Below, in pieces: positions 5,181-53,292 of a DNA stretch of 64,000 bases (position 1 is its first letter; every line of letters starts with the position of its first letter). Source of the stretch: Tridacna crocea (taxonomy: Eukaryota; Mollusca; Bivalvia; Cardiida; Cardiidae); NCBI GenBank assembly GCA_943736015.1, contig OX031071.1, forward strand, positions 38,100,619-38,164,618. The letters run 5' to 3'. The position numbers were made by a program, and so were the translations under genes. Under the pieces are notes generated by a model that was given only the letters and a program-made list of their open reading frames with translations, made no database searches and was not told the DNA's origin.

Positions 5181-6937
5181 CTACGGTAGTTGATAAAATG
5201 ACAAAACATTTCGTTTGGATTTTGAAATCCAACTGTGGCTGATATAAAGTTTATTTTCTGTTTCACAATATGTCATAGACTGTGGAGATTCCATTCCTTG
5301 TGTTTGATCCAGTAATATTTGTATGGGTCTACACTGTGTAGATACCTGGTGTATGTTGTGTGAATCACGTCCAGCTATATAAATATTATCATATTTATCT
5401 ACAATCAGACCACGTGGAGACTTCAGGTTAGTATCTCTATAAACATTTTGAACTCTACCCTGTAAATCGACACTTGTCACAGTGTTGGTCTGAATGTCGC
5501 TAACAAACAGTGTAGGTTTGGAATTACTAAGACAAACATATCTGGGACAATTAAATAGAGGTTGTCCATTTTGATCTGTAGAAAATGATTTCAGTATTTC
5601 TCCATGTAGACTGACTAATTTAACAGCAGATTCTGGTTCATCAAATGACACAAATAATTTATTATCATGAAAAATAATTCCACTACAGTCCCCATTAACT
5701 TGAAGCTCATTATTTACAGTCAAAGTTTGGCCAACATTTACAAAAACTAATTTATTTTTACATGTAATGACAATTTGACTTCTATCAATACAAGTAACAT
5801 CCCATGGTGACGTGGAAAGTTTTAGATAAGATAGTATACTCTTACTGTCAACATTTACAAGTTTTACACTGTCGTTGTTAAAATCTGTAAGAGCAATTCT
5901 GTATGGATCTATCATTACACTGCCTGTAATCTTACAGACATCTTTATCTTTTGAATGTTTAACATTGATTTGTCCTACATATCTGGCTCTAACAGATTTG
6001 GGATATTTATTGACCAGCTTTATGTTTTCTTTCTGCTTTCTCTCCATTTCTATTTTTCCTTCCTCCTCCTCTCTATCCACTTATGTACCAAGATTGCACA
6101 TAGATTGAAGTGAATGTAGCATTTCCTCATTTTTGTGAAATTTATAATTTCTAATTTTGTTTTGACTGTATATGTCTGCCATTTTCTTTTCTAAGTCAGA
6201 AATTAGGGTTTCAGCTTTCTTTGCTGAGATTACCAACTGTCGCTGTTGTTTGTATTGTTTATGTTTGTCTAAGCTAGAGACAATTTCATTGATGTTAGTG
6301 GTCATTGTTTCACACGTTGTAGACACAGTTTGAGCCTCTTTCGTATCAAACTCCTTCACATCCTGGGCTTCCTTCAAAATGGTTGCTTCCATAGAATCTA
6401 GAAGGTTGTTGATTTCTGTTCGAAATGATTTCACATCTGATACAAACCGAGTGTACACTGTTTGTACGTCTTGGCTGTATCTTGTTGAAGTTCTCTTTAT
6501 ATCTTTTAGCTGCTGTAGAAGACTTGTAATTTTCTCTGTTAAATATATGTATTCTGGACTTGTCTCAAAGTCTTGCACAATATCGTCGATGTATTCTATA
6601 GAACAAGTTTTGTGTTCAACAGTCAAACAAACACCACAAAAAAAATTTTTATGACTCTTACAATAGTACCGTAATACTTTCTCTTTGTGTAAAGAGCAAA
6701 CATTTTCTTCTGTTGAAACAAGTTTTTGTTGCGGCATTTCATCTCCGATTAAATTTTGTGATTTCTTGATAACTTTGACATCTTATGTACTGAACAACAA
6801 TTATTGCAGAAAAACTCGTCCCAGTCTACACAATACTGTTTAGCATTTTCATTTTTGTTCAATAATAAACAGGGATCACATTGAACACCTGTTGTGGTGT
6901 CGGCACTCCTTCTCTGATTTATACCTGACACTTCCAT
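5181..6937 (-). pseudogene. B-box / coiled-coil / NHL-like propeller gene (TRIM-like), copy 1, broken
   Basis: Three pieces form one TRIM-like reading path. Piece one (6937-6749) holds B-box 1 (CDPC...FFCNNC...H). Piece two (6737-6081) holds B-box 2 (CSLH...YYC.SH...FFCGVC...EHKTC) and a coiled coil. Piece three (to 5181) is a propeller-like domain ending in YQLP. Compared with copy 2 there is a 1-nt deletion near 6750-6756 between the B-boxes and an in-frame TAA at 6081-6083 where copy 2 has TTA (Leu). A B-box 1 zinc cysteine is also replaced by tryptophan (VDWDEFF, near 6815). No RING is present. Family members are cytoplasmic, often ubiquitin-related or RNA-binding and often immune-linked; the specific role here is unknown. 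Three independent lesions favour a pseudogene, though the two indel/nonsense lesions could in principle be assembly errors. Confidence 0.85.
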
Positions 6938-10240: not shown

Positions 10241-10329
10241 GGCATGCACTGGTACGTTACGGAGGATGCTGAGTTTTCACATATTGTTTTGGTTATGACC
10301 TTTTGAAACTGACCGTACATATTACTTAT

Positions 10330-10434
10330 CCTTTTATCACACAGTCACGACGTTTTACGACCATAAAAAAGCCTCTTGAAAACATTTCGGGAAAAGTAGA
10401 AAATGCTGGTAACCACTGTTTTCTCCATTTCCTA
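10330..10434 (+). mobile_element. TTAA hairpin MITE, left part (split by LTR element)
   Basis: 'ttttatcacacagtcacgac' and the arm 'gggaaaagtagaaaatgctg' are visible. The opposite arm is cut at 'ttctccatttccta', and the element resumes at 10865 with 'cctacaatgttttct'. Confidence 0.8.
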
Positions 10435-10592
10435 TGCCATGGAGAGAGGTTAGATACATAAGCACTTGAAACCTGCCTTACTGTTGAGCTAGCATTTACA
10501 GCGATGCGGTTTGTTGTATTTCTCTCCGTGATAGTTAAGCAACGTGCATTAAGTTAGTGCTTGGATGGGTGACCACGTCGATGCACGTTACA
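10435..10592 (+). repeat. 5' LTR of the mini-retrotransposon
   Basis: 158 bp, TG...CA. It contains 'ggttagatacataagc', matching the TATA-like 'ggttagatatataagc' of the other LTR, and an extra ~20 bp ('acttgaaacctgccttac') that the 3' LTR lacks. The two LTRs differ at enough sites that the insertion is not very recent. Confidence 0.8.
10505..10592 (+). other. 5S rRNA-like internal promoter segment, LTR 1
   Basis: GTTAGTGCTTGGATGGGTGACC here matches the animal 5S phrase GTTAGTACTTGGATGGGAGACC at 20 of 22 positions. Upstream, AGTTAAGCA corresponds to the 5S box A region (AGCTAAGCA). These are the pol III internal control regions of 5S genes. The 5' third of 5S is not recognisable, so this is not a 5S gene. 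Confidence 0.75.
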
Positions 10593-10594
10593 TT

Positions 10595-10612
10595 TGGTGG
10601 CAGCGGTGGGAT
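10595..10612 (+). other. Primer-binding-site-like sequence
   Basis: TGGTGGCAGCGGTGGGAT starts 2 nt after the 5' LTR, the expected place for annealing of a tRNA 3' end (which ends CCA). Which tRNA cannot be settled by eye. Confidence 0.6.
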
Positions 10613-10711
10613 AATGACAACTGCCGCACTTGAGTCGCCTTACCCATGCAGATTCCCCTGTTTTTTTGTTTATACATGCTTGTATATCAGCCTCGAAGTC
10701 GAGACTTGTCG

Positions 10712-10724
10712 AAGGGGGAACTAA
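10712..10724 (+). other. Polypurine tract
   Basis: AAGGGGGAACTAA lies directly upstream of the 3' LTR, as needed for plus-strand priming in LTR retroelements. Confidence 0.6.
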
Positions 10725-10864
10725 TGTCACGGAGAGAGGTTAGATATATAAGCTGTCGAGCTAGCTTTTATAGCGATGCGGTTTGGTGTATTTCTCTCCG
10801 TGATAGTTAAGCAACGTGCATGAGGTAAGTGCCTGGATGGGTGACCAGGTCGTGGCACGTTACA
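10725..10864 (+). repeat. 3' LTR of the mini-retrotransposon, with 5S-like end
   Basis: 140 bp, TGTCAC...GTTACA. The TATA-like GATATATAAGC sits near the start. The 5S-like part (about 10776-10864) carries AGTTAAGCAACGTGC and GTGCCTGGATGGGTGACC. Both a pol II-type TATA and pol III-type boxes may therefore be present. Confidence 0.8.
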
Positions 10865-10985
10865 CCTACAATGTTTTCTAACGTATCTAAGATAATTACT
10901 GTCATTTGAGGCTGACTTCAATTGCCATCTACACTTGTTTTCAATTTGGACAAGTATAAACTAATATTTCCAGTGTGGTATATAG
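10865..10985 (+). mobile_element. TTAA hairpin MITE, right part
   Basis: It resumes with 'cctacaatgttttctaacg' and includes 'ttttcaatttggacaagta', the family's right-half signature. It pairs with 10330-10434. Confidence 0.8.
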
Positions 10986-37141: not shown

Positions 37142-37371
37142 TTAACACGTTACCACACAGCAAAATTTTAGACCTATCCAGATTGAAAACATTTTGTAGG
37201 TATCAATTTCATAGTGGCTAAAATGACTAAATTTTTCTTTGATAGGGTAGAAAACCTTGTGGGAAAAGGAGAAAATACTAGTTACCCGAATGTTCTCCTT
37301 TATCCACAAGGTTTTCAAAAGGCTTATTCCTCAGGGTCATTAAAAGTCGTCATTGTGTGGTAAAGGGTTAA
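37142..37371 (-). mobile_element. TTAA hairpin MITE, complete
   Basis: TTAACACGTTACCACACAGC to GTGTGGTAAAGGGTTAA. Core TTGTGGGAAAAGGAGAAAAT / TCTCCTTTATCCACAA. Confidence 0.85.
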
Positions 37372-51541: not shown

Positions 51542-53292
51542 CTACTGTAGTTGATAAACTGACAAAACCTTTCCTTTAGATAAACTAGCATGACTGATAT
51601 AAAGTTTGTTTTCTGTTTCACAATATGTCACTGACTGTGGATCTTCCATTCCTTGTGTTTGATCCAGTAATATTTGTATGGGTCTACACTGTGTAGATAT
51701 CTGGTGTATGTTGTGTGAATCACATCCAGCTATATAAGTAGTATCATATCTATCTACAGTCAGACCACATGGATACTCCAGGTTAGTATCTCTGTAAACA
51801 TTTTGAACTTTACCCTTGAAATCCACACTTGTCACAGTGTTTGTCCCACAGTCACTAACAAATAGTGTAGACTTGGAATTACTAAGACAAATATACAATG
51901 GACATTTAAACAGAGGTTGTCCATTTTGGTCTGTAGAAAATGTTTTCAATATTTCTCCATGTAGACTGATTAATTTAACTGCAGGTTCTGGTGTAACAAA
52001 TGACACAAATAATTGATTATCATTAAAAATAATTCCACTACAGTCTCCATTAACTTGAAGTTCTTTGTTTACAGTCAAAGTCTGTCCAACATTTACAAAA
52101 ACTAATTTATTGTTACATGTAATGACAAGCTGACTTTTATCAATACAAGTAACATCCCATGGTTGTGGGGAAAGTTTTAGATAAGATAGAATACTCTTGC
52201 TGTCAACATTTACAAGTTTTACACTGAAGTTGTAACGATCTGTAAGAACTATTCTGTCTGGATCTATCATGACACTGCCTGTAATCCAACAGTCATCTTC
52301 ATCTTCTGAATGTTCAACATCGATTTGTCCTACATAACTGGCTCTAACAGATTTGGGATCTTTGTTGACCAGCTTTACATGTTTTTTCTCTTTTCTCTCC
52401 ATCTCTGTTTTTCCTCCCTCCTTCTCTCTATCCAATAATGTACCAAGATTGAACATAGATTGAAGTAATGTAGTATTTCCTCATTTTTGTGAAATTGATA
52501 ATTTCTAATTTTGTTTTGACTGGATATGTCAGCCATTTTGTGTTCTAAGTCAGAAATCAGAGTTTCAGTTTTCTTTGCAGAGATCACCAACTGTCGCTGT
52601 TGTTTGTATTGTTTATGTTTGTCTAAGTTAGAGACAATTTCATTGATGTCTGTGGTCATTGTATCACACGCTGTAGACACAGTTTGAGCAGCTTTTGTAT
52701 CTAACTCCTTCACATCCTGGGCTTCTTTCAAAATGGTTGTTTCCATGGAATCTAGAAGTTTGTTGATTTCAGCACGAAATGATTTCACATCCGATATAAA
52801 CTGGGTGTGCACTGTTTGTAAATCTTGGTTGTGTCTTGTGGAAGCTTTCTTCATATCTTTTAACTGCTGTAGAAGACTTGTAATTTTCTCTGTTAAAGAT
52901 ATGTAATCTGGACTTGTGTCAAAGTCTTGCGCAATGTCGTCTATGTATTCTATAGAACAAGTTTTGTGTTCAACAGTCAAACAAACACCGCAAAAAAAGT
53001 TTTTATGCATCTTACAATAGTACTCCAATATTTTTCCTTTGTGTAACGAACAGACATTTTCTTCTGTTGAGACAAGTTTTTGTTGCGGCATTTCATCTCC
53101 GTTAAAAAAATTGTGATTTCTTGATAACTTTGACATCTTATGTACCGAACAACAATTATTACAGAAAAATTCGTCACAGTCCACACAGTAATGTTTAGCA
53201 TTTATAGTTTTGTTCAATAATAAACAGGGATCACATTGAACACCTGTTGTTGTGTTGGCACTCCCTGTCTGATTTCGCCCATACACTTCCAT
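51542..53292 (-). CDS. B-box / coiled-coil / NHL-like propeller protein (TRIM-like), copy 2, one frameshift
   Basis: The path starts at the ATG (MEVYGRNQTG) 24 nt after a splice acceptor. Domains by residue: B-box 1 about 20-60 (CDPC...CVDCDEFFCNNC...H), B-box 2 about 75-110 (CSLH...YYCKMH...FFCGVC...EHKTC, all ligands present), coiled coil about 125-270, propeller-like C-terminal half ending SVYQLQ and a TAG at 51542-51544. The full path is about 583 residues, but one base is missing near 52466 relative to copy 1, shifting frame at the coil/propeller junction. Piece one is open to 52375, piece two from 52456. No RING, so a classical RING-type ligase activity is not expected. It could be a recent pseudogene or a live gene with a sequence error; the conserved splice signals and B-box ligands lean to the latter. 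Immune or RNA-related function is family-level inference only. Confidence 0.85.

Follow-up and report, generated by a model that had tools for sequence, protein, structure and literature searches.

A miniature LTR retrotransposon of Tridacna crocea whose LTRs match the internal promoter of a 5S rRNA gene

At positions 10435–10864 of the window, by which we mean the whole 64,000-nt stretch of Tridacna crocea DNA that was analysed, lies a complete miniature LTR retrotransposon (TRIM) of 430 bp. We read the family to which it belongs as a non-autonomous TRIM of the Ty3 type with a 5S promoter in its LTR, which would be transcribed by pol III into an RNA with a short terminal repeat (R) and ends that pair as a panhandle, and which would depend on Ty3 helpers acting in trans. 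We put the probability of this combined reading at roughly 0.6. A preliminary description of the same DNA had proposed an animal counterpart of the plant Cassandra elements; the design itself stands, but it is not new to animals, having been published as Ajax (Kojima 2024, PMC10886601, as far as its account of that family goes), and the use of pol III is a matter of inference from the anatomy of the element. The TRIM described here is of a recently recognised kind, TRIMp3, apparently in a new host group: among the articles covered by a literature search, none described a 5S TRIM from a mollusc.

The element has the ordinary layout of an LTR retrotransposon, and every feature named here is on the forward strand unless stated otherwise. 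Two direct repeats, each beginning with TG and ending with CA, form the 5' LTR (LTR1, 10435–10592, with 158 bp the usual length in the family) and the 3' LTR (LTR2, 10725–10864, 140 bp after one 18-bp deletion), and the two are 90% identical across their last 112 bp. Between them lies an internal region of 132 bp (10593–10724), which opens with a primer-binding site (PBS, 10595–10612) that begins 2 nt past LTR1 and closes with a polypurine tract (PPT, 10711–10720) separated from LTR2 by CTAA (tract and CTAA together, 10711–10724). The sequence CCTA stands immediately outside on either side (10431–10434 and 10865–10868) as a target site duplication (TSD). The insertion splits a host MITE-like repeat of about 220 bp, now spread over 10326–10980, whose empty form is present at 37151–37371 on the minus strand, where the repeat reads through the matching junction with no TRIM inside. 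The preliminary description had noted the unequal TG...CA repeats, the primer-like site, the purine tract, the CCTA duplication and the rejoining of the MITE halves, and the element is confirmed at the position that it gave. The MITE-like repeat itself is common, with dozens of full or partial matches within the 64-kb window. No reading frame of at least 110 aa occurs in the element. Elsewhere in the window, at 5181–6737 and 51542–53292 on the minus strand, are two similar pairs of reading frames that look like B-box/NHL protein genes; three of the four public matches to one such frame carry PF00643, which we take to be the B-box zinc finger.

Within each LTR we find further landmarks. A TATA-like motif, TACATAAG, occupies 10455–10462 of the 5' LTR (family columns 21–28), and its counterpart in the 3' LTR, TATATAAG at 10745–10752, is also the form found at these columns in at least 47 of 77 LTRs of the family. 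The two arms of an inverted repeat lie at 10437–10447 (columns 3–13) and 10521–10531 (columns 87–97). The box A and box C regions of a 5S promoter follow, at 10533–10545 and 10553–10574 in the 5' LTR and at 10805–10817 and 10825–10846 in the 3' LTR.

We then consider the element as one copy among many in the genome (1,048,827,098 bases, or 1.05 Gb, in 31 contigs). A 426-bp query taken from the element yields at least 48 matches (with the best 40 of 689 candidates scored), and 43 of the 48 matches listed span the query from position 13 or earlier to position 415 or later. The exact junction of LTR end and PBS occurs 46 times, compared with no occurrence of the same letters written backward; two of these occurrences (L048 and L049) belong to Ty3 elements that have no TRIM match, and one (C18:36749184) was left out of the loci read. 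From 72 loci (L001–L050, L063–L082, L092 and L097) we obtain 69 distinct chains of parts: 45 are LTR–internal–LTR, six LTR–internal and six a single LTR, four have three tandem LTRs, two have four, and six are of other composition. Tandem arrays with shared LTRs are thus part of the family and reach about 1 kb. A single element usually measures 158+133+158 bp, within a size class of 430–449 bp, and the internal region is 133 bp long in 28 of 42 cases, its commonest ending being GAAGGGGGGAGTAA (15/42). The element has the anatomy that defines a TRIM: two LTRs within the 100–250 bp bracket, a length below 1 kb, no coding capacity, and an internal region bounded by a PBS and a PPT. One exact 22-mer, used to look for relatives in viral contigs, had no match there. 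The mitochondrial contig of the genome (L098; G000:C31), of 29,009 bp, has frames resembling nad1 and cox1 on one strand, cox1 being identified by PF00115 and nad1 being our name for an open frame.

How these copies were inserted can be judged from 35 elements with both ends intact (30 single elements and five arrays, drawn from L001–L050 and L063–L082, the others being dropped). All 35 start with TG and 34 end with CA. A perfect 4-bp TSD flanks 26 of them and a 5-bp TSD none, and when left and right flanks are deliberately mismatched, agreement across 4 bp is found in only 18 of 1190 pairs; this is insertion of the integrase type, with duplication of the target. The family has been active recently, because the LTR pairs of the 30 single elements differ by a median of 4.1% (range 0.6%, or 1/158, to 14%). 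With 15 differences in 140 positions, the window copy is an older member. These values describe copies that were selected because they resemble the window copy or contain the exact LTR-end/PBS junction, which is not a random sample. A decayed LTR relative (L097; G000:C2:9376000–9377900, with its LTR end near 1113) retains box C (TTAGTACCTGGATGGGTGACT) together with most of the LTR end but has lost box A, which points to older members of this family.

The primer site connects the TRIM to larger elements of the same genome. The PBS has two main forms, with C or A at one position (TGGTGGCAGCGGTGGGAT or close variants); the exact form of the window copy is present in 20 of 42 internal regions. Both forms match tRNA ends in the same genome, at seven places, and the three tRNA genes read at such matches are all tRNA-Leu(AAG). 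The preliminary description had suggested looking for a Ty3-type partner with the same LTR ends, and two families of candidate helpers emerge, each with a tRNA-Leu(AAG) primer site, a TRIM-like LTR end and part of the leader. In family 1 (L048, L049 and a copy on C10), domains for RT, RNase H and integrase are present within a piece of 2.2 kb; the LTR of L049, 1086 bp long, starts with TGTCACG and ends with ACGTTACA, like the TRIM, and the two copies with both flanks read have 4-bp TSDs, CTAA and ATAT. In family 2 (L094–L096) the LTR starts with TGTAGCG and ends with GCACGTTACA, ten letters of which are as in the TRIM. Both families are small: their LTRs measure about 1086 and 802 bp, and a piece of the LTR has 7 and 17 matches, respectively. 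In a comparison of seven pieces, TRIM and Ty3 junctions agree at 85–87% over 38–41 nt, past the PBS into the leader (E 1.5e-6 to 4.3e-6). The families were found with a query of TTACA plus the primer site, so the 18 primer-site letters of the junction were part of the search itself and only the further letters are independent evidence. Either family, or neither, may be the helper, as family 1 matches the start of the TRIM LTR better and family 2 its end.

Having located the parts of the element, we ask what the 5S-like segment is. The 3' part of the LTR matches nt 50–92 (43 nt) of the host's own 5S gene: box A (AGTTAAGCAACGT in the 5' LTR) agrees at 13/13 positions with 5S nt 50–62 and the box C region (GTTAGTGCTTGGATGGGTGACC) at 21/22 with nt 71–92. 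The two boxes are kept close to 5S spacing, and the intermediate element (IE) between them is mostly replaced. Local-alignment scores against the host 5S are 44 for LTR1, 40 for LTR2 and 44 for a better-preserved copy, L002, beyond the maxima of 23, 30 and 26 from 1000 dinucleotide shuffles of each; the best of 802 other pieces of the window scores 26. The match at the 3' end of the LTR that the preliminary description reported is real, longer than it claimed and most fairly judged against the 5S gene of the host itself, and a TATA-like motif and a 5S promoter segment do share one LTR, as it had said. The upstream part of the L002 LTR has no similarity to 5S nt 1–49 (score 13, with shuffles up to 22). 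On sequence grounds, the LTR appears to have taken up its 5S segment from the internal promoter of a 5S gene, and an LTR that contains the promoter of a small RNA gene is what marks TRIMp3.

A second proposal, alignment with 5S rRNA covariance models, gave the opposite answer to the strongly positive alignment scores. Rfam cmscan finds no 5S (RF00001) match at the gathering score in the whole window, and at E<=10 none in the element stretch or in L002, so the LTR segment has the standing of neither an intact 5S gene nor a 5S pseudogene. The negative is no surprise, given that the 43-nt piece of promoter lacks the rRNA fold, and we set this search aside as a deciding test, only 5S nt 50–92 being present. 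A genome-wide RF00001 search does not test the LTRs, because only the 5S genes themselves received scores (the best 47 of 19100 candidates scored, at 115–119 bits). The exact box A...box C pattern occurs at 77 places in the genome, 76 of them in two 5S arrays and one with the spacer of the TRIM. We looked at SINE3 as a local source of 5S sequence and did not retain it: the exact pattern shows no dispersed 5S SINE, and diverged SINEs would escape it. The arrays lie at about 5.22–5.27 Mb of G000:C1 (L051–L062) and about 72.12–72.17 Mb of G000:C3; the former has two upstream spacer types, and some of its genes have changes in box A (GTTGAGC, GTTTAGC). The 5S sequence of this genome is like that of bivalves.

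If these boxes function as they do in 5S genes, the life cycle of the TRIM could run as follows. The RNA would start near LTR column 50 (10484 in the window copy, a position predicted from the alignment, with box A sitting at nt 50 of 5S), set jointly by the TATA-like motif at -29 to -22, by box A at +50 and by box C some 80 nt from the start, with pol III as the polymerase. Transcription would run through into the 3' LTR as far as TTTT at columns 60–63 (10766–10769, a candidate pol III terminator), so that the RNA would be about 305 nt long and its R about 14 nt. The two ends of this RNA could pair as a panhandle, because the LTR itself can fold as a hairpin, and this pairing would bring the copies of R together for strand transfer. 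tRNA-Leu would prime reverse transcription, and reverse transcriptase and integrase would be supplied in trans by Ty3 families.

The distribution of T runs is the first feature that bears on this model. In 72 of 77 LTRs a run of four Ts (T4) begins at column 60, and five further runs of at least four are scattered over four other columns; the 5' LTR of the window copy has just TTT where columns 60–63 usually carry T4. The longest T run is three in 41 of 42 internal regions, the exception being a T7 in the window (10661–10667), which we dropped as an argument against pol III, this run being private to the window copy. Exactly two runs of four or more are found in 25 of 30 single elements. One such run counts against the model: the 5' LTR also has a T4, 11 nt past the predicted start, which transcription would have to pass. 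Shuffling gives mixed values: L002 has 2 T4 runs compared with a shuffle mean of 2.76, lacking T4 within its 287-nt body has P 0.21, and one T4 in LTR columns 50–75 combined with none in the internal region has P 0.026–0.069 over five copies. The scarcity of T4 runs is suggestive of pol III and is not proof of it. Three of the four candidate helper LTRs are measurable; they have 9, 7 and 8 runs of at least four Ts and no 5S boxes. We give no weight to the lack of AATAAA in the TRIM LTRs (0/77), helper LTRs also being without a usable one (none in the two family 2 LTRs measured; upstream of TATA in the family 1 LTR).

Folding predictions are consistent with the panhandle. The 305-nt RNA of L002 is predicted to pair end to end with an MFE of -121.9 kcal/mol (z -6.4 from 100 shuffles), and the panhandle frame is the best of six tested in four of four copies, in one of them narrowly by z. 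Counting against it, lone LTRs fold strongly on both strands, with z from -0.6 to -6.3 and from -2.2 to -6.8 (13 and 7 copies). The longest perfect inverted repeat of L002, 8 bp, is not unusual, being reached by 32 of 300 shuffles, and we find no covariation for the LTR hairpin, since such double changes as it has resemble the decay of CpG. The TATA-like motif and box C are no more conserved than the remaining LTR, because all copies are recent.

Three other accounts of these data have to be weighed. In one, the same TRIM is transcribed by pol II from the TATA-like motif, and the 5S segment either serves as an enhancer-like site or was captured as a mere passenger. A motif at columns 21–28 is also compatible with pol II starting near column 50, the intermediate element is degraded, the T4 scarcity is weak and AATAAA is missing from the family 2 helpers too; in plants, moreover, there are Cassandra-like TRIMs with a TATA motif and no 5S sequence, according to the part of PMC10853983 that treats them. 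Against this account stand boxes A and C, preserved near their 5S spacing while 5S nt 1–49 show no similarity upstream in L002, and the T4 run just past the predicted start in nearly all LTRs. We consider it unlikely, if still a serious competitor. The account that we can practically dismiss is chance, that is, two unrelated solo repeats with an accidental resemblance to 5S. The negative covariance searches speak for it, and the genome family refutes it: the repeats are not two solo units, because genome copies keep LTR, PBS, PPT and 4-bp TSD together, as the preliminary description had supposed, with 45 of 69 chains complete, TSDs in 26/35 elements compared with 18/1190 control pairs, and alignment scores above all 1000 shuffles.

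The remaining account concerns origin: the TRIM could be Ajax, shared with nemertean families by common descent or horizontal transfer and not captured independently. Ajax, as described in the relevant passages of Kojima (2024, PMC10886601), is a TRIMp3 of two nemerteans, 421 and 434 bp long, with only the promoter of 5S in its LTR, a tRNA-Leu primer and 5-bp TSDs, and is called almost certainly independent of Cassandra. The likeness is considerable: both are animal TRIMs of about 430 bp (430–449 bp here), retain 5S as the internal promoter only and have a tRNA-Leu PBS. In a comparison by description only, the TRIM here differs in having 4-bp TSDs (perfect in 26/35, with 5 bp in 0/35) and a mostly lost IE, where the 5S part of Ajax reportedly spans IE as well as boxes A and C, and in its host group, Ajax being reported in that account from nemerteans only. 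We regard shared ancestry with Ajax as improbable, though well worth considering.

Set against the other known families, the TRIM here is not Cassandra, and it lacks two stated features of Ajax (the 5-bp TSD and the IE) and shares others. It resembles Cassandra, in the sections of PMC7215508, PMC10853983 and PMC10886601 that describe it, in having a 5S promoter in both LTRs, tandem LTR–internal arrays, predicted LTR pairing in the RNA (the LTR strands of Cassandra RNA are described as pairing in stems, PMC7215508) and a predicted short R (18 bp in Cassandra, PMC10886601). By the same partial accounts Cassandra is a plant element of 565–860 bp with 5S sequence, IE included, in the middle of the LTR, and its PBS is given as TGGTATCAGAGC, compared with TGGTGGCAGCGGTGGGAT or close variants here. 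Helenus, as outlined in PMC10886601, is likewise a TRIMp3 with a captured small-RNA promoter, and its families in animals combine TSDs of 4 bp with primer sites like those of Gypsy, but that promoter is derived from a tRNA and not from 5S; ARAGORN finds no tRNA in the window, so the LTRs of the window copy are not tRNA-like. The bivalve family biv-TRIM, from what PMC6934838 gives in its description, also occurs in solo and tandem forms, but has repeats of 202–218 bp, an internal region of 77–80 bp and no unambiguous PBS; its conserved motif TGATCCCAAAGGAC is absent here, with 4–6 mismatches in 35 of 35 elements, and the internal region here is typically 133 bp.

Returning to the preferred reading of a pol III-transcribed Ty3-type TRIM, we tentatively extend it, at rather less than even odds, to a non-nemertean capture of 5S sequence into a Ty3-type TRIM, independent of both Cassandra and Ajax, in which the LTR would work as one unit: the TATA-like motif and boxes A and C setting the start, the TTTT terminator lying in R with few other T runs, and the hairpin becoming the panhandle of the pol III transcript. 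If this is true, 5S promoters would have entered LTR retrotransposons at least three times. In that case the TRIM here has candidate helpers available in its own genome, unlike Cassandra, for which the corresponding text of Kojima (2024, PMC10886601) gives no indication of an autonomous partner. Such candidate helpers may make two questions accessible to test: which features an LTR element transcribed by pol III has to have in common with its helper, and how strand transfer can work with so short an R.
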